Position numbers and translations under genes: made by a program
Virus record (IMG/VR): IMGVR_UViG_3300032284_000053
Coordinates: 1-20,126 of that record
Reading direction: 5' to 3' (one strand)
Length of the DNA stretch: 20,126 nt
DNA from: a virus
In this document: piece by piece, positions 5,874 through 19,725 of the stretch
How positions within the stretch are numbered: position 1 is the first letter of the stretch
How the letters are laid out: each line of letters starts with the position of its first letter
The notes under the pieces: model-generated
Database searches by the model: none
What the model was told of the DNA's origin: nothing
The model's input: the letters and a program-made list of their open reading frames with translations, nothing else

Positions 5874-8800
5874 CTATTGATTAGTAACGTATCTGGAAAA
5901 ACCCGGAAACTTGAATAGTTTGTCTATAGTTTCTGGTTTTGTTTTGCCAGAATATACCCAATAGAAAAGACTGTTTCCGTCATTCATAGTTGTATTCAAC
6001 ATCTGAATAATGTTTTCTTTGGCTTTGCCATATTCTTGATCGGGATGTTCTTTGCGAAATGCTGCGTCAGCATTTTGGGCAAGATACATATTGGACATTC
6101 CGGGATGAGCCTCGGCAACATCGGATTTATATTCATTTAGATAGTTAAACCTATCCAATGCACGTTGCTTATCTATGTACTGCCCAGCAAGAATTTTTGC
6201 AGCTTGGTCTTTTGTAAGTGACGAGTTAGGAACCATAGAGGCAACTTCATCAAGCGCACCAAGTGAATTTTGGTTGGCCCCCTTTGTAGTTGCGATTCTT
6301 AAAAACCCGGTCAATTTATCAGACGCAGCTTTCCATCCCAAAGCATCGTTTTGCTCTGGTGTGGTTACAAGATACTGGGTCGGGTCCATATGAAGTGTAG
6401 ATGCAACTGTTTTAATTACGTCGTTTGCTTTGTTTAAGAGGCCCGCCTTAAAATCAAACAAAGGACCACCAGAAAGGGCCTCATTTGCAGGTAGTTTTAA
6501 CAGGGCCTCTGTAAGCTGATTTAGCGTTCCGCCTTGATTATAAGCTGAGGTTGCATCTTGGATTGTATTTGCTTCAACAGCCTTTGATATTTCCATTTGC
6601 GGAGCGCGTTGATCATCCGAAAGCGGCATTAGAGCAGCGAAGTCACGGTCAGCCTGCGCCCTGCCAATACCACCAACGAATTTAGGAACCTCTCCATGTG
6701 GCATCGGCATGTTTTCTAATGACTTGGTAGCCATAGTATTGCTCTGATCCGGCGTAGCCGACTGACCCGGCATGGAAGACTGACCCCACTCAGGGTGTCC
6801 AGAGATGATGTTTGGCAGTTCCGCCGAACCGGCAAGTGTTGGCCGTTTATTTGCCGGAAGAGCAAGATATTCGCCAACAAGCATACGGCTTCCATCAGGC
6901 ATGATAGCCCAATCTCGCCCGCCAATGGTCGCAAATCCAATTCCCTGCATTGCCTTACCAGCAACTGCCCGCGCCTCGGATATTCTTGCCCGATTCATCT
7001 GGGTGGATTGTAATGCGCCTGCACCTGCGCCAATGCCTTCAGCAAGAGCGCCAAGACCATAGCGGTTTGAAGAACTTGCCATAGCGCCGATACCCTGAAG
7101 GAACGGAATAACAGCGTCCTCGTCTCCACTGGCAAGTCTATCGAGATACCCACCCTTGGGAGCAAGAGTGTTACCGGCTCTTTCAAGGAAACCGGGCTTT
7201 GGTGGCGTTGGCGGCTGGGGTGCTTGCGGCTGTGCCAAATCTTGACGGATGTTAGGAGCGCCAAGTCCGGTACGGGCAAGAAGAGCGCCTTCAGCCGCAT
7301 GCGTATCTACCGGAGCCTGTGCAGAAGAAATCGCATTACTACCGCCAAGACCCGGAGCCATACCTGCACCAGTTTCTTCGCTGCGAATTGGAGGAAGCGC
7401 AGAAACATTTATAGGGGCGGGCAGCGGCGGTGCAATACCCGGCGCGGCAGGACGCGCCACGTTTGGACGGGGAGTGACTGGGTTGGCGGGTGTAGTCCTA
7501 CCTGCAAGCTTTGCTTCAGCAGCAGGATCAGAACCCATACGATACGCTTTTAAAGGTGCAGTAGAAGCCGATGGCTGTAACCCCGGAGCCACAGGAGGAT
7601 TAGTGCCGGACGGAGAAAGGCCCGTCGCTGCATACACAGCCGCCCTATGTGCGGCTGCGTCTGTATCATATTGAGAAATGACTTTCCTGTTTGCCTCGCT
7701 TTCATTTGGACTCATGAAATATGCAACAGGAGAAGTTGTTTTAAGATGATGATAAAAATTTGCAAATTGATCAAGCATTGGCATTTCTGCGTCTTTCGCA
7801 GTGTCGGTCTGAGCCATGCCTAGAAACTTATTACCGGCTTCTCTGTATTGGCGACGTTGGTTGTCAGATATGTTTGGATTTGGTGCAGTAGATACTCCAT
7901 ATAACTGCTCTCCAAGACTGCGATAGCCAGCCGGATTTCTTTGATTTTCTGGAATTTCTGAATTGTAAAGCGGAATATGTGGCAAATTTGCAGACGAATC
8001 TTCATCCAGAGGACCGCCACCATCCTTGCCAATGCGACCACCACGGTTCATCAGCGCCGCTAACGCAGCGATGCTTCCAACATCCTTTGCAAAATGCAGG
8101 CCCTGACTAAAGCCGCTTTCTGGCGCATCAGGTGCGGCACCCGGCTTTGCAAGCTCTTTTTTATCAATGCTTTCGGCGGAATCTGGCATATAAGGATTGC
8201 TGCCTGCGTCATAAGGCGTTCCAGAGCCAATATCTTTTTCAGCCTTTCCGCCTGCGGCTTTCTTTTTGCTAGAAGGGCTCATGGAGGATGCAAGGTCTGC
8301 AATACTAGCAGCGTCATCCATCATCTCAGTAAACCCAGATTTTGGAACTGGCGGGGGATCGCCAGCAACCATAAGATCAGGGGTGTCAGAATGAGAAAGC
8401 GGAATACCATAGGGACCTGAAGAAGCGCCACCAGAGGCGTAATGGCCTACGAGACCGCCACGATAAAGTGAAATTGGGTCGTTATTATTTTTATCAGGAG
8501 ATTTTGAATCTTTTGTAGTTTCAGATTCAGCCGCAGGTTCATCTTTTTTGAACCAGCTTTTAATTTCCTTAACTCCGGCTTTGCCAGACTTATATGCCTC
8601 TCCAAGACCACCAGAAGCCTCAAGCATCCCCTTTAACTGAGACTCCGGCAGTTTAGGAGCGTCACCAGCAACAGTTAGATTACCAACTGGAAGCGTTCCA
8701 GCGGGGACGAAACCGGGAGCGCCCGGAGAACCACCAAGACCGGGAATACCCTGATTGCCATACATGCCAAACTGAGCTTGAAGAATAGCAGCCATTTCAT

Positions 8801-12512: not shown

Positions 12513-14300
12513 CTATATGTTCCCGGTAACGCTCTTATTGCTGCCAGAGCCGCCATCATAAATACCGCCATTCACATTGTTATGAGTGCCGGTGGTAAGA
12601 TTACCTTGAATAATATAGTAATCGGAAGTTCCACCGGACACATATATTCCATATGATTGATTGGTAGACGTTTCTGGCGCTAAGACGGCAACGGAATTGG
12701 TTGTAAGCGTAAATTCTTTAACATTCGCTCCAACAGTAATTCCGTTGTAACCAGCTAGAGAATTGACGCTGTTATTGCATACGAAACAGTCTGATATTTT
12801 AGCAGCAAGCCCGCCGTCTAACAGAACGCCGTGCTGACCGTTTCCAAAGATTCTGGTTCCTTGAATGGTAATCTCGCTCGTCCAAGAGCCGCCTACACTC
12901 ACGCCGTTACCAACAAGGGTCGATCCAATATACGAACCATCAGCATGAAACCCGCGCCCTGCGTCCAAAGATACGCCAGCGGCGTAACAATGGTCCGTTT
13001 CAAGGTCAAAGAAGAACGCCCAACTAGGGTACGTCCCACTACCGTTATGAACCATCTTAAATCCGGTGTAGCCATTAAGGAGGACAATCCCAACGCCCGT
13101 AAGGCTGTTGGCATTACTGTCCATCAATATCCAGTTTAAATTGGTTGAGCATACAGCCTGAACATAGGCAGAGCCGTTTGCTACGGGCGTGTAATACCAA
13201 TTGGTTGTAGTGGGCGCAGCCGGTGCGGAACCACCAGAAGTACCCCCCGTTGTGACTTGCCATACCCAGTTGTTAGCCGTGAAAAGCTGCCCAGCAGCGT
13301 AAGAATGCGACGCTTGGAACGAAGTCCAAGCATTACTATCAGGAGAAGAGTACGGGTATGGATTGTCGCAAACCAAATCTTTAACGAAGAGGCCGTGTGA
13401 CTCACCGGAGTTACCCAGAAATCCAATGCCTTGGGTTCCGGTCATATACCGCATGGTTACGTTTTCAATGGAGCCACGGGTCGTGCTGTTTATGCCGATA
13501 CCGTTGTAACCCCATTCTATGAACACAGAGTAAATGACAGGCTCAAACCCACCCGTAACGTATATTTCATATCCGCTAGTTCTAAAGACATTTGGCATAA
13601 ATGCCATTTCACGGATGCTCGCAAACTGAGCGTTTGCGCCAAGAGTCATCGTGTTGCCAGTGGCAGATGTCATTTGAATAACGGTAGACCGAGGGCCGTC
13701 CCCTCGAACCGTTACGCCTTCTCTTGTTATGCTACTTAGCCCCGTGACGTTATACGTCCCAGTTGGGAAGTAGACTGTCTGACCTGTGCTATTGGCTACC
13801 GCGATTGCAGAATTAATGGCGGCAGTATCATTTGTTGAACCATCTCCTGTAGCCCCATATGATTTGACGTTTAGCCAAAGCGTCCCGCTTGACCCCGTAG
13901 GCCCCGTGGCCCCCATAGGGCCGGTTACAGACGCTCCTGTGGGTCCAGTTGGGCCAACATTTCCAGTAGGGCCAGTAGGGCCGGGAATAAACGAATTTCC
14001 GCCAGTAGGCCCGGTGGGTCCGCTGCCACTTGGACCAGTGGGGCCGGGGACGGCACTAGCATTCCCAGTCGGACCCGTGGGGCCAACGTTACCAGTTGGC
14101 CCTGTAGGACCACCGGGAGGACCCGTGGGGCCAACTACACCGGTTGGACCCGTGGGTCCCATGGCAGGTCCAGTCGGGCCTACATGACCAGTTGGACCTG
14201 TGGGACCATTAAGACCGCTGGGTCCTGTAGGCCCAATAGGGGACACCACCTGAAAATTGGCGTCTATGTACGGGTTACCAATTATGTATGGGACCGGCAT
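12513..14300 (-). CDS. Tailspike-like protein: collagen-like stalk plus pectate-lyase beta-helix (595 aa)
   Basis: Residues 1-20 may anchor to the virion. Residues 22-137 are a collagen-like region built from GPTGPTG blocks with short interruptions. From [18 protein letters not shown] (141-158), with [12 protein letters not shown] at 176-187, the protein has the hallmark start of the pectate-lyase-3 superfamily right-handed beta-helix, which continues to the C-terminus with repeating short strands. Residues 323-372 ([31 protein letters not shown]) look like an inserted small carbohydrate-binding-type module. The fold is typical of tailspikes that bind or cleave surface polysaccharide. Catalytic residues cannot be assigned from sequence alone. 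TAATG overlap with the nozzle-like gene couples translation, and GGAAG precedes the ATG. Confidence 0.85.
13890..14237 (-). repeat. Collagen-like Gly-Pro-Thr repeat stalk
   Basis: The encoded repeat is G-x-x, overwhelmingly GPT, in short blocks broken by 2-6 residue interruptions such as HV, VV, NV, NASAVP and GNSFIP. Pro is placed in the X position and Thr in the Y position, as in many bacterial and phage collagen-like proteins without hydroxyproline. Probably a trimeric stalk. Confidence 0.9.
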
Positions 14301-16345
14301 TAGAACTTCCCGTCAGGCTGTAGGCGGTAACGGATATTACCCAGACGCCAGAATGAATTGATGTCGCTGCTCGAAATGGCAATCGAAACCAACCTGCCAC
14401 GGAACCGGGGGGTGACATACTGCGTAGATTGGGTAACCGTGAACGGCCCAGACACCAGCGGTGTCTGCCCAGCGTAGTCCGTATAGTAGAACGTAATCTG
14501 GACGTTCGCGCTTTGAGTGCCGCCGTAATAGCCCCACTTCATGTCGGGCCAGACCTGATCAATAAAGGTCTTAACGTCGGCCTCGCTCAGGGCAAAGTAG
14601 CCAGTCTGGAAACTGGATAGCATTGGCTGGCCGTCAGCATTTTGCGAGGTCTCGTGCTGGTAAATGTACCGCTCCGGGCTGGCCCCGATAGGGTTACCAA
14701 GGACCGACTGATTGATCCACGCAGTACGGCCCAGCGTCCCGAAATCCCACTGTCCAAGACCCTTGTTATACTTAACATACTTTGCGACTTCACCATTGCT
14801 GCTAATAGTCGGGTAGTACCAAGCTATTTCGTTGAACAGAGAATTGGCAGCAAACCTAATCTTGTTAACATTGGTCAGATCAATGTCTTGGAAGATCACA
14901 TCCCAAACGGGGCAATAAATGGACTCAACGCCACTTCCAGCCAGCACATAGAACTGTGACGGCCCCATCCAATAAACAGAGCCGTTGAGCGTACCGGCTG
15001 CTTTTTGACCTATCAGGCCGCACCCAGTTCCGACTTCGTTGAAGCTATAAATGTATGGCTGGCCGATATACTGCATGGACCACAAGGCGGTGTCGGTCCA
15101 AATCAAGCCCTGCTGCGGACCCTGAATGCCACCTACGATGCGCGATCCGCGCGGAATGCGGTAAGAGCCAGCTTGATTGGTTACAGAGGCAATCCAAGCG
15201 TCATAATTTTCAACGTCGCACCAACGAACAAGAAGATGATCAATTATGCCGTTAAATGTAGAGCCATAAGCAATGACCTGCCTTTGCGGCATTGCTACAA
15301 AGCACCCAGTATTAGCTGTTGGCGCATTTGGTATGACTGTGGCAATCGTTGGGTTGACTAGCGGATTCCAGACATAGATTTCTTGCTCAAATGGATTAGC
15401 AATCAAAATGCTACCCCAATTGTCTAAAGACCAATCAGTAGCAGTTATAGCTGTTCCGGGATTAGCCGTAGGCGCTACGCCGCTGCCATATCCGCCCGCA
15501 CCATAGGGGCCAACGCCATAACCAGTACCTAAAGGAAGGGGGCCATCGCCAATAAACAATTGATAGCGGGCCAAGCCGCCATTCATGCTACCAGAGTCGT
15601 TTGCGTTAGCGGCGTTTGATGTTTGAATACTAAATGTGTTTGTAGAATTAACTTGTGTAATTAGGTAATTACCAAAAATGGTAATGCCAGCTACATTCGT
15701 TGAAACCAAGGCAGTAAAAGTATCTCCAACGACATAACCGTGATCTGCTAAAGTAACCAAAACAATAGATGAACCGTCTGTCGTATCGTAAACAGGAACA
15801 GCGCCGCCTGTAGTAACAGTAGCGGTGGCATAGGCCGGTTGCCCCAAAACATCAGTAGCGTAAATATTAAAGGAGTTAACGCCAATAGCCGAACATTGGT
15901 ACATTCCAAAAAGAACAAGACCGCCAACGCTAATTTGTGTTTGTATATAAACGCTGTCGTAGGAAGTAATATTGCTTCCAGTAATGTTGATAATTACTTC
16001 ATTGCTGCCAGAAACGGTGTCTACATTAACTCCAACATTATAAGTTTCAGTTCTTGGGGTGATGTTTCGTAAGATGTTTTCTGACAGCGTTTCGAGAAGA
16101 TCGACCGCCCCAATCGCCAGATATTTTTTGTCGTTCGCGTCAGCCCACGCCCATAGGCACCGAATGATGCTGCTGATGGGGTTGGCAAAATACTTAGTCC
16201 AGCCGCCCAACTTCTGAGGAAGTCCAATCCCCTGAGCGTCTGGCACAAAGCGGATAAGCTGCGACGTTGAAATCGCAGCCTCGTTCAGTGCCGGTGTCCG
16301 GTTCTGATTTACGCCCGGAATGAGTTTGAGAGAGGCATGTGGCAT
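14300..16345 (-). CDS. Probable tail nozzle / DNA-stabilisation protein (681 aa)
   Basis: The N-terminus [20 protein letters not shown] with [19 protein letters not shown] and GGWTKYF belongs to a widespread podovirus structural family comparable in size and place to T7 gp12/P22 gp10 nozzle proteins. That equivalence is inferred. Residues about 110-165 and 189-245 are two related beta domains. A Gly/Tyr loop ([17 protein letters not shown], 273-289) precedes [20 protein letters not shown], a family hallmark, and the remainder is strand-rich and propeller-like. It lies 3 bases after the adaptor gene and overlaps the spike gene start by one base, the expected order adaptor, nozzle, spike. GAGG upstream supports the ATG. 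The nozzle would close the portal channel and attach spikes. Confidence 0.75.
15611..16018 (-). repeat. Tandem duplicated beta domain inside the nozzle-like protein
   Basis: Copy 1 (residues about 110-165) has [11 protein letters not shown], then NSFNIYA. Copy 2 (about 189-245) has [21 protein letters not shown], then NTFSIQT. Both follow V-I ... Y-x-x-x-D/S ... V-(G/A)-G-(L/I)-x-(L/I)-F-G-x-Y ... N-x-F-x-I. The likely origin is duplication of an Ig-like or OB-like surface domain. Confidence 0.62.
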
Positions 16346-17068: not shown

Positions 17069-17518
17069 TCACCCAACCGGCAGAAGTGCCGCCTCTGCTT
17101 CGCGCCTAGCCACAAGTCCGGGCAGGATTTTACCCCCACCACGGACCCATTTTCTAAGCTGCTCCTGCGCCCCGTCCCAGTCCCCAGCATTAAGTTTTTC
17201 CCTCAAGGTACTGGTTTGCAGCCTGCCGACACCAAGGTTATAGCAGAAATCTACAATGGCGTTTAGTGCTTTCGGGTGTTGGACCAAATTTGGGCAGTAC
17301 CGGATAACCTTGGGCAAATACCGGTGCCGAAGTTCTGCCTCCATTAGGGCATGGGCGTCTTCTTTAGACATAGGCAAATCAGCCAAAGTGACGGCTCGAC
17401 CGTCAGCGTAATGGGTCGATCCATAACCAATCGTCGGTATTCCAGCGGGACAAAGATACGGTTTGTTCCTAAATCCAATGCGGAGGCGATCAAATATTTC
17501 TGAAGATGCCTCGCTCAT
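17069..17518 (-). CDS. GH24 (T4-type) lysozyme-like endolysin with altered active site (149 aa)
   Basis: Residues 15-33 (GFRNKPYLCPAGIPTIGYG) are the GH24 muramidase signature. ADGRAVTLADLPMSKEDA, VDFCYNLGVG, STLREKLNAGDW and RKWVRGGGKILPGLVARR complete a full-length domain of normal size. GH24 enzymes use Glu (8 residues) Asp/Cys (5 residues) Thr. Here the Thr (29) is present, the Asp position is Cys23 (a natural variant tolerated in the family), and the Glu position is Ile14 (R-I-G in place of xEG). This suggests loss of catalysis or a changed mechanism. No signal peptide or transmembrane anchor is seen, and no holin is recognised nearby. It begins with an ATGA overlap with the fusion-enzyme gene, with AAAGG just upstream. 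Peptidoglycan binding without cutting, or a virion role, is possible. Confidence 0.85.
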   Translation of the reverse strand: MSEASSEIFDRLRIGFRNKPYLCPAGIPTIGYGSTHYADGRAVTLADLPMSKEDAHALMEAELRHRYLPKVIRYCPNLVQHPKALNAIVDFCYNLGVGRLQTSTLREKLNAGDWDGAQEQLRKWVRGGGKILPGLVARREAEAALLPVG

Positions 17519-19725
17519 ACCTCTGCCTTTATACCCATGACAAAATCCAAGTTAGCTTTAAGCCTCAGATTATCAGGAGCCGCCTCAACCGCAAGTTTTG
17601 CTTGCTCGATGGAGACCTCTTTCAGGCCAAGGTGCCAAGCGGCGATACTGGCTAGATCGTGGGCCTTAAAGCCCCAGACTTCCGGGTCGCAGGTATAAAC
17701 AAGCTGCTTGTCTTTAATCGACAAGGCCCGCATGGCCGCACCGTAGCATTCGGCCCATTGGCTCTGGCGGTACTTTAACAGGGAAATAGCGCACCAAGGC
17801 TCGCGGGTATTGGGGGCTTCGGCGCAAGCCTTGTGATAGGCCCCCTCGGCCTCCCACTGCATGCCCTTTTCCTCATAGCATTGACCTAGGACCCTGTAGG
17901 CGTAGCACCGCTCATTGCCCCAAGTGGCTTCCGGCATGGTCAGGTATCTATTCAGGGCGACAATTGCCTCGTCCCATTTCCGATAAAAAGACAGTTCTCG
18001 GGCGTAATAGAAGGCGTTGCGCGGGCAGCGAGGGTCCTCCTTGACCGATACCGCCAGAAGATCAAGGTACTGGCCCCGGCTTTTCGTGGGATCGGGGTGG
18101 TGGCTGACCATTAGCATGTCGGTATCGGCCCAAACCTCTACAGTCCGGGGGTCTGGAATGGGATACTCATGGCAGGGGTGGTGCCACATATACCCTTTGC
18201 GGGCATGGATTTTCTCGTACTTAAACTTGATCCCGCAGCCCCAATCGAAGAAATAGCGCAGACGAGTGGTGTTTTCAGTCCACACCCGTTCCATTTCCTC
18301 CCGCCAGCCGGGTTCTAGGATTTCGTCTAGATCAAGCGAGACGCATATGTCCGCATCAGCCGGGATAAGCGCCAGAGCGGCGTTCCGAGCCAAATCAAAG
18401 CGCCAAGGAGTGATACAAATATTATGAACAATAGCGCCAGCAGCTTTAGCGGCCTCAACAGTCTTGTCCGTACTGCCTGTGTCAGCGATAACCACATAGT
18501 CAGCATCCTTTGCGGAATTACAAAATCTCTCAACAAAACTTTCTTCATTTTTGCAAATAGCATAGACAGCGATTTTCAATTTCCGGCCCCTTTTATGTAA
18601 CTCATCGTACAGGTTATGGGTTGTCCCCCAGTCATGCCGGGAGAAAACAGGCCCATTTCCAGTGTAGGTAAACCCATCAAAGTGGTCCGGGATGAAGTAA
18701 TGGGAGGGCCAGACGGTATAGCCATCCGGCTCTGCCTTTAAGACCCCGGTCAGACGCCTAGGGCCAGTCCCGTACCAAGCGGGCTTATTTTCTATGTCAT
18801 CATCGGCCCTGATCTCTTCGATCACCTTTAAAAGGCGCGGATCACCCTGCTTGGCCGCAATATAACCGCAGGCTATCAGGCCCTCTCTGACGGTCTCATT
18901 TTCCCAAGAGACGCAAAAATCGCTGTCAAAGAGCCAATCTTCCAAAGGTTTGACGCACTGGCTGTCAGCGTCAACATAGAATCCACCCTCGTTATAGAGG
19001 ATTTCGTAGCGCATCATGTCGGCAACCCCGCATAGCTGGCGCTGCCACATAGTCTCCATTCTGGCCTTATTTACCCAATTTTCCTTAGAATATTCCCTGT
19101 TACCCCATACTTTTACGGTCCAGTCAGGATTCATGTCCTTCCAAGTCTGGATGTAATTGTCGGGCCTTTTGGCCTCGTCGCCCACCCAGATCATATGGAT
19201 GACCTTGGGAATCATGATCTGGTGCTTGGACCAGACATAGACCCCGATCTCACCGTCTATGGCCGACCAAGAGGGCTTCCCAAAGGCTTCCTTGACCCTA
19301 GCGTCGGTCCAGTCATCGACTATATGACGCTCATGGGGGTTCCCACCCCAGTCACCCTGCGGAAAATGCCCTATGGGGATGCTCGCAATAACCGTGTCTG
19401 CCACCTGCCGGAGCCTATCAAGAAGGGCCTTGGCCTCCTCTTGGGTCATATGCTCCAAAACATCCCCGGCAAACGCTATGTCGAACCTATCTTCAGGCTC
19501 AAAAACATGAGTTCGCGCGTCGGCTATAATCAGCTTTGAGTACAGAGATTTAAGGTCATAAGCCTTAACATAAGGCTCCCAGACTTCAATCCCAGTCCAG
19601 TCGGCATCAGGGAATAGCTTGGCATAAGTGCCTTCACCGCACCCAATATCCAACATTCTGTCGTGCTTTAAAGCACCGACAATCCGTTTAATGTAAGTTT
19701 TTCCGTCCTGCGAACTAGTAGGCAT
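17515..19725 (-). CDS. Methyltransferase-GT32-GT2-TPR multidomain fusion (736 aa)
   Basis: Four modules can be read in order. Residues 1-168: class I SAM methyltransferase, with motif I LDIGCGEGTY (25-34), acidic IEVWE (46-50) and GDVLEHM (87-93). Residues about 171-350: GT32/OCH1-like sugar transferase, starting IPKVIHMIWVGDE, with GGFYVDADSQCV holding the DXD metal site (252-254). Residues about 381-545: GT2-type transferase, with LKIAVYAICKNEE, ADTGSTDKTVE (414-424) and SLDLDEIL (DXD 465-467). Residues about 566-736: TPR-like helices. GT2-TPR pairing is known in SunS-like glycosyltransferases. All key motifs look intact. The acceptor may be a virion protein, host envelope glycan or secreted sugar. 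No Shine-Dalgarno precedes the ATG; a 15-bp palindrome does. It overlaps the lysozyme gene by 4 bases. Confidence 0.87.
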   Translation of the reverse strand: MPTSSQDGKTYIKRIVGALKHDRMLDIGCGEGTYAKLFPDADWTGIEVWEPYVKAYDLKSLYSKLIIADARTHVFEPEDRFDIAFAGDVLEHMTQEEAKALLDRLRQVADTVIASIPIGHFPQGDWGGNPHERHIVDDWTDARVKEAFGKPSWSAIDGEIGVYVWSKHQIMIPKVIHMIWVGDEAKRPDNYIQTWKDMNPDWTVKVWGNREYSKENWVNKARMETMWQRQLCGVADMMRYEILYNEGGFYVDADSQCVKPLEDWLFDSDFCVSWENETVREGLIACGYIAAKQGDPRLLKVIEEIRADDDIENKPAWYGTGPRRLTGVLKAEPDGYTVWPSHYFIPDHFDGFTYTGNGPVFSRHDWGTTHNLYDELHKRGRKLKIAVYAICKNEESFVERFCNSAKDADYVVIADTGSTDKTVEAAKAAGAIVHNICITPWRFDLARNAALALIPADADICVSLDLDEILEPGWREEMERVWTENTTRLRYFFDWGCGIKFKYEKIHARKGYMWHHPCHEYPIPDPRTVEVWADTDMLMVSHHPDPTKSRGQYLDLLAVSVKEDPRCPRNAFYYARELSFYRKWDEAIVALNRYLTMPEATWGNERCYAYRVLGQCYEEKGMQWEAEGAYHKACAEAPNTREPWCAISLLKYRQSQWAECYGAAMRALSIKDKQLVYTCDPEVWGFKAHDLASIAAWHLGLKEVSIEQAKLAVEAAPDNLRLKANLDFVMGIKAEV

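Follow-up and report, generated by a model that had tools for sequence, protein, structure and literature searches.

The virus record analysed here, 20,126 bases long and referred to below as the window, carries on its minus strand (17515..19725) a gene for a 736-aa enzyme in which methyltransferase, GT32, GT2 and TPR modules follow one another in a single chain. On comparative grounds this is probably a phage glycosyltransferase of the SgtA kind, directed at protein, with two catalytic modules fused in front of it and with the phage's own collagen-like fibre as the structure that it decorates. The nearest relative that has been tested glycosylates collagen-like spore proteins, so the phage's own collagen-like tail fibres would be the most likely target.

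In the pathway that we propose, the TPR arm would hold the collagen-like Gly-Pro-Thr (GPT) stalk of a tail fibre or spike made by the phage itself, and the GT2 module would start the glycan by linking a sugar to the hydroxyl groups of the Thr residues in this stalk. GT32 would add a second sugar, extending the O-glycan, and the methyltransferase would cap it; methylated sugars are known on BclA. A single soluble late protein of this type would decorate the fibre in the cytoplasm, ahead of virion assembly. Comparative support is good for GT2-TPR as the initiating unit and weaker for the order of the steps: holding by the TPR arm and initiation by GT2 are suggested by homology and context, extension by GT32 and methyl capping only by the recurring fusion. 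The Thr of GPT as acceptor in this phage, the identity of the sugar, the role of GT32 as extender and the action of the methyltransferase on sugar are all points that we infer. The phage might gain a fibre that is stiffer or resists proteases, or else masking or a change in adsorption.

Module composition and predicted structure of the enzyme

The open reading frame named in a first-pass annotation of the window is real, with an ATG start and no internal stop over 736 residues on the minus strand; the plus strand has several stops over the same interval. The catalytic motifs that the annotation had listed are likewise intact within one chain. Residues 1–168 (19222..19725, minus strand) form a class I SAM methyltransferase module with DIGCGEG at residue 26 and a conserved GDVLEH-type motif, and the protein exceeds the curated Pfam cut-offs for both Methyltransf_25 (PF13649; 31.2 against 27) and Methyltransf_11 (PF08241; 29.1 against 21.2). 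The GT32-type module (residues 169–380; 18586..19221, minus strand) scores 43.7 against a cut-off of 23 for Gly_transf_sug (PF04488) and bears GGFYVDAD at residue 247, part of a conserved GG...D-x-D pattern whose D-x-D is invariant in 17/17 aligned sequences. It is followed by a GT2 module of the GT-A type (residues 381–585; 17971..18585, minus strand), with DTGSTD at 415 and DLDE at 465, which reaches 32.7 bits for Glycos_transf_2 (PF00535; cut-off 23.3). The GT2 DxD aspartates, D465 and D467 in the window, are invariant in 35 aligned sequences including SgtA.

The C-terminal module (residues 586–736; 17518..17970, minus strand) scores 14.3 for the Pfam TPR, below the cut-off of 27.8, and the same model is above cut-off in two relatives (L062 and L067). 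The model shows residues 553–730 as paired helices that resemble TPR structures, with pLDDT mostly above 90, in agreement with the TPR-like helices proposed for this end of the protein. Curated cut-offs and motifs thus identify GT2, GT32 and a class I methyltransferase, and the TPR is identified via relatives and the model. A single PHROGs family, phrog_13126, spans residues 384–731 (4e-98) and so treats GT2 and TPR as one family; we refer to this unit as the core. The protein is without a hydrophobic membrane segment (maximum 19-residue Kyte-Doolittle hydropathy 1.24), and the Pfam matches of the chain include no DNA-binding, base-modifying or 2OG oxygenase domain. A role in anti-phage defence was rejected, the enzyme matching zero PADLOC-DB families at E 0.01.

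In the AlphaFold model of the full chain the methyltransferase and GT2-TPR parts are confident, with blocks mostly at pLDDT above 90, and the GT32 domain is of low confidence; modelled alone, the GT32 module reaches pLDDT 85 and pTM 0.85. The best fold matches of GT2-TPR are the peptide glycosyltransferases SunS and ThuS (Foldseek E 4e-17; structural comparison VIA Z 23.2, rmsd 3.8, 275 aligned). Profile matches of the core extend to GmaR (5e-20), to SunS (5e-17) and to the TPR domain with which prolyl 4-hydroxylase binds peptides (6e-7), a match that may be no more than generic for TPRs. Membership of the SunS family itself (TIGR04195) was rejected, at 16.4 bits against an NCBIfam cut-off of 350. 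Fold searches with the GT32 module returned YeGT, SetA, PaToxG and Och1. The methyltransferase profile resembles only solved structures whose names call them putative or generic methyltransferases, and its fold matches include protein N-terminal methyltransferases, so this module might act on protein.

Gene neighbourhood

The enzyme gene sits amid many structural genes. The candidate acceptor in the window is a 595-aa tail-spike-like protein (12513..14300, minus strand) with N-terminal collagen-like repeats and a pectate-lyase-like domain, in which 16 of the 36 GXY triplets are GPT (GPT part at about 13881–14243). This is the only GPT-bearing ORF of the window and lies downstream of the enzyme, four genes on; the upstream side, on which relatives have their main collagen gene, is off the contig. 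In a relative whose enzyme is about 90% identical to that of the window, without GT32 (L007), a 568-aa collagen fibre is encoded 4.8 kb upstream, and the truncated upstream ORF of L002 starts with the tail end of a GPT run.

A lysozyme ORF (17069..17518, minus strand) overlaps the enzyme gene by 4 nt at 17515–17518, and the first-pass annotation took this overlap as tying the enzyme to late expression. The overlap is present, but appears to be the product of a deletion of about 730 nt that is peculiar to the window contig, whether biological or an assembly fault. Five relatives (L002, L003, L005, L006 and L007) carry about 730 more nt at window position ~17476, and the overlapped ORF of L003 and L002 encodes a 72-aa protein of its own, with the lysozyme gene following two genes later. 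The lysozyme ORF of the window is accordingly a chimera, made of the first ~13 residues of the 72-aa ORF and a lysozyme minus its first ~14 residues. The missing start includes an FEG motif, whose Glu is presumably the catalytic residue of lysozymes of this family. The position of the enzyme gene makes late expression plausible.

Two 2OG-Fe(II) oxygenase genes lie directly upstream of the enzyme in close relatives of the window and are candidate hydroxylases of Pro or other residues. Relatives of the two were found in 6/80 and 9/80 of the IMG/VR core loci and, among the matches listed, in 6 and 2 of 116 loci fetched by a GPQ pattern; on these counts we rejected them as a conserved collagen-hydroxylation partner and regard them as a lead. 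An enzyme of the tryptophan-halogenase family stands beside the core in three loci only (L083, L162 and L181).

Association of the core with Thr-rich collagen genes

The phage loci comprised 57 cores that were non-redundant at 90%, 48 of them fetched without use of a GPT pattern. Among these 48 loci, of those having at least five upstream genes, 23/25 have a Thr-rich collagen ORF upstream of the core, no GPT-type collagen ORF being found upstream in the other two (L013 and L095); downstream, such an ORF occurs in 2/33 of the same set with at least five downstream genes. The nearest collagen ORF is on the strand of the core in 38/38 phage loci. In a permutation test over 60 loci, 38 of them with collagen, the mean distance from core to collagen was 3.29 genes compared with 5.57 at random (p ≤ 5e-4), the collagen gene usually lying 2–4 genes away; direct adjacency in phages was not above chance (9 against 5.4 expected, p 0.09). 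PF01391 is present in the collagen proteins of L007, L020 and L044, and collagen ORFs from six core loci match PHROG tail-fibre families, although such matches may rest on the repeats alone.

The reverse comparison started from the collagen pattern. Among the matches listed, a strong core was present in 13/120 GPT-pattern loci and in 0/116 GPQ-pattern loci (p 1.8e-4), four loci that match both patterns being counted in the GPT set only. The remaining 107/120 GPT-pattern loci, again among the matches listed, have no strong core in the fetched stretch, which argues that the core is dispensable for GPT collagen. A further control used 80 loci that share the structural gene at 14300–16345 of the window, 42 records of at least 8 kb being searched whole. 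GPT repeats were found in 10/42 of these records and the core in 22/42, with GPT repeats in 10/22 records with the core and 0/20 without it (p 5.7e-4); the records are fragments, and so the absences are soft. With all 80 loci as fetched and no length limit, the figures were 10/28 with the core and 2/52 without (p 3e-4). A background set of 34 loci, fetched with an arbitrary pattern and too small to carry weight, contained neither core nor GPT collagen.

The same association is seen in cells. The scan of cellular genomes kept 80 of 309 relatives, the titles of which are mostly of Firmicutes and which, L453 aside, are 40–48% identical. A Thr-rich collagen ORF occurs in 44/72 Firmicute-type loci tested (53/80 cellular loci under looser criteria), and in 33 Firmicute-type loci it is directly adjacent, against 7.4 expected and a maximum of 18 in 2000 draws. 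No characterised function was found for Firmicute relatives closer than SgtA.

Exchange of modules around a conserved core

The IMG/VR scan kept 80 of 178 relatives of the enzyme. Those of near full length keep the module order, L002 and L003 at 94–95% and L086 and L004/L350 at 67–70%. All four modules are under strong purifying selection, with dN/dS of 0.02–0.11 in each when the window is compared with L002 and L003; against L004 and L086, synonymous sites were saturated in all modules but one.

Counted as redundant ORFs over the fetched loci plus the window, the core stands alone in 87 (a figure that includes weak matches), behind a methyltransferase in 38, and in the full MTase-GT32-core order in 11; GT32-core accounts for 6, core-GT32 for 5 and MTase-core-GT32 for 2, with GT32 alone in 3 and MTase alone in 2. 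The 11 four-module ORFs represent only six contigs, because some were fetched more than once; the window is one of the six. The scan of cellular genomes added a seventh carrier, a 4.7-kb contig (L453) in an 'Anaerolineales' MAG. GT32-core fusions were absent from the 79 cellular loci other than this one. In the phage collection, 0/74 matching records cover 80% of the four-module chain, and no DNA closely similar to the window was found. The arrangement had been described as unfamiliar, and this stands for the four-module order, which is rare; it does not stand for the GT2-TPR half, which is common in phages and Firmicutes and of a kind already known from the characterised SgtA.

GT32 is fused in three positions (MTase-GT32-core, GT32-core and core-GT32), and all eight GT32-bearing fusions tested pass the PF04488 cut-off. 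In a quickly built tree of 61 cores, with 23/57 inner branches starred, the phage rows require at least 7 changes of state for GT32 and at least 10 for the methyltransferase. One starred group unites the window, L002 and L003, which have GT32, with L005, which does not. The L005 DNA is about 83% identical to the window in the methyltransferase and about 92% in the core, with the GT32 block alone missing, so this module was gained or lost recently. The conserved unit, as judged from these comparisons, is GT2-TPR of about 360 aa, around which GT32 and the methyltransferase have repeatedly been gained and lost.

Alternative roles for the enzyme

The enzyme might instead glycosylate one or more other virion proteins, the GPT collagen being a frequent passenger of the tail-fibre locus. 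The many structural genes around the enzyme and the distance of several genes that often separates core and collagen in phages are compatible with this, and there is a precedent in the glycosylation of capsid and tail-tube proteins reportedly described in mycobacteriophages by Freeman in 2023, work that is cited in PMC12619734. We nevertheless regard it as quite unlikely: the same association recurs in Firmicutes with cellular collagen-like ORFs as the neighbours, the core is found on GPT and not on GPQ contigs among the matches listed, and GPT repeats are absent, in the records searched whole, from phages of the same kind that lack the core. It is also unlikely, if a little less so, that the methyltransferase and GT32 act on something unrelated and that fusion merely co-expresses three independent accessory enzymes. 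The modules do come and go freely, with GT32 in three positions, and the methyltransferase is without a characterised close relative among solved structures. However, the same partners recur in independent fusions, and both Desulforamulus aeronauticus and Shouchella have MTase-GT2 fusions next to copies of GT2-TPR, a recurrence that argues for one pathway.

Phage glycosyltransferases are usually explained by DNA protection or by modification of the host surface, as far as the consulted parts of three reports go (PMC10202952, PMC7029224 and PMC12619734). A change to the LPS, teichoic or capsule glycan of the host surface that blocks superinfection or alters the adsorption of other phages was one of the roles offered in the first-pass annotation; it is a common published proposal (PMC7029224, PMC10202952), and the PHROG label of the core reads 'beta-1,4-glycosyltransferase, moron'. 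Nothing specific to this enzyme speaks for such a role, which we consider improbable for a protein lacking a hydrophobic membrane segment, in which a TPR arm is joined to a peptide-glycosyltransferase fold, and which combines SgtA homology with co-occurrence of GPT collagen. Glycosylation of phage DNA, proposed for some phage glycosyltransferases (PMC10202952), is so improbable as to be close to negligible, given the Pfam matches, the peptide-glycosyltransferase fold and the collagen association. The other role offered earlier, a short methyl-capped glycan on collagen Thr residues held by the TPRs, is the one that SgtA homology, the GPT-collagen neighbours and the controls favour.

Decoration of the phage's own collagen-like fibre is thus the reading that we prefer, and the evidence would assign to it a large phage family with a tested cellular relative. 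The comparisons show that the family evolves as its putative extender and capping modules are shuffled round a fixed initiating unit. If the reading is correct, the enzyme could serve as a compact single-gene tool to put methyl-capped O-glycans on peptides of the GPT type, and the glycans would gain a testable role in phage adsorption. More tentatively, and with some doubt on our part, the enzyme may be a single-chain O-glycan synthase of a tailed phage within an island for collagen maturation (2OG-Fe(II) oxygenases, halogenase), where module swapping would let phages alter fibre decoration quickly, as a host-range or anti-recognition trait. In the open-licence literature, we found no paper joining collagen-like proteins, threonine O-glycosylation and bacteriophage, and nothing relevant combining TPR, collagen and phage tail.

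Comparison with known systems

The nearest tested relative is SgtA of Clostridioides difficile, a protein of 358 aa with a GT-A domain and four TPRs, whose gene adjoins bclA3 and whose substrate is the collagen-like BclA3 of the spores (PMC7157674). In vitro, SgtA adds beta-O-GlcNAc to GPT peptides at Thr and can use Ser as well, and the native spore glycan is longer than the SgtA product and is capped by enzymes left unidentified (PMC7157674). The sgtA ORF was fetched via a published primer, which matched 9/71 genomes at no more than 2 mismatches; the resulting locus (L536) has a 358-aa ORF that begins at the primer and is followed after 40 nt by a collagen ORF. Our phage GT2-TPR profile matches this SgtA at E 5e-37 (116 bits). 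The phage core and SgtA align end to end at about 22% identity with the motifs NE, DTGSTD, DxD, PxHE and YxxRE in common, and in pairwise BLASTP of the window protein only residues 383–617 are significant (1.9e-14). Like the phage core, SgtA consists of GT2 with a C-terminal TPR. Its gene stands beside a GPT-repeat collagen gene, and phage loci of the core family usually have one upstream. Unlike the window enzyme SgtA is cellular, acts on the spore coat and has a single catalytic domain with no fused GT32 or methyltransferase.

SunS and ThuS share with the window enzyme the GT2-TPR fold and an action directed at protein, SunS being a peptide S-glycosyltransferase derived from the SPbeta prophage; their targets are Cys residues of small bacteriocins. 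The same GT2-TPR core family includes phrog_13126 ('beta-1,4-glycosyltransferase') and similar proteins of Pseudomonas, Erwinia and Dickeya phages, which are annotated by name only. GmaR, the flagellin GlcNAc transferase of Listeria, also combines a glycosyltransferase, here N-terminal, with TPRs and acts on a filament protein, but it differs in its additional linker and antirepressor domains and in acting as a transcriptional regulator (PMC9638930). Mimivirus L230 parallels the proposed role in being a viral multi-domain enzyme that modifies the virus's own collagen-like proteins (PMC9614988). It fuses a collagen glucosyltransferase to a lysyl hydroxylase and yields hydroxylysine-linked glucose (PMC9614988), and unlike the window enzyme it comes from a virus of eukaryotes and is built from different enzyme families. 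The hydroxylase is fused within L230, whereas in the relatives of the window the 2OG oxygenases are separate neighbouring genes.

Gene neighbourhood of the enzyme and its relatives

At position ~17476 the window is without ~730 nt that are found in five relatives (L002, L003, L005, L006 and L007). The lysozyme ORF (window 17069–17518) is a chimera from which the N-terminal FEG motif is absent and, compared with L003 and L002, a 72-aa ORF is shortened in the window and a 164-aa ORF is gone. Judged by position, the latter two ORFs are candidate lysis genes.

Immediately 5′ of the enzyme in close relatives lie two 2OG-Fe(II) oxygenase genes (PF13640 and PF13759) and a phrog_7084 gene; this arrangement is at L003:3438–4684 (+ strand) and recurs in L007 and L013. 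These oxygenases may be collagen hydroxylases. Also near the enzyme in close relatives is a second collagen-like protein, of the GNAGNPG type and nearly Thr-free (L003:198–2525; L007:5627–7627). A tryptophan-halogenase-family gene adjoins the GT2-TPR core in three phage loci (L083, at 6538–8109, L162 and L181), lying 3–12 nt from the GT2-TPR gene or overlapping it by the same amount. Each of these loci also has either GPT repeats or collagen genes.

L453, a contig 4.7 kb long in the bin of an Anaerolineales MAG, encodes a four-module copy of 743 aa (93% core identity). It may hint at the host, or it may be a phage contig that was misbinned. In Firmicutes (loci L454 and L455, and in whole genomes), MTase-GT2 fusions adjoin tandem GT2-TPR copies, and at least two core ORFs occur in 26 of the 80 cellular loci (the best 80 of 309 relatives).
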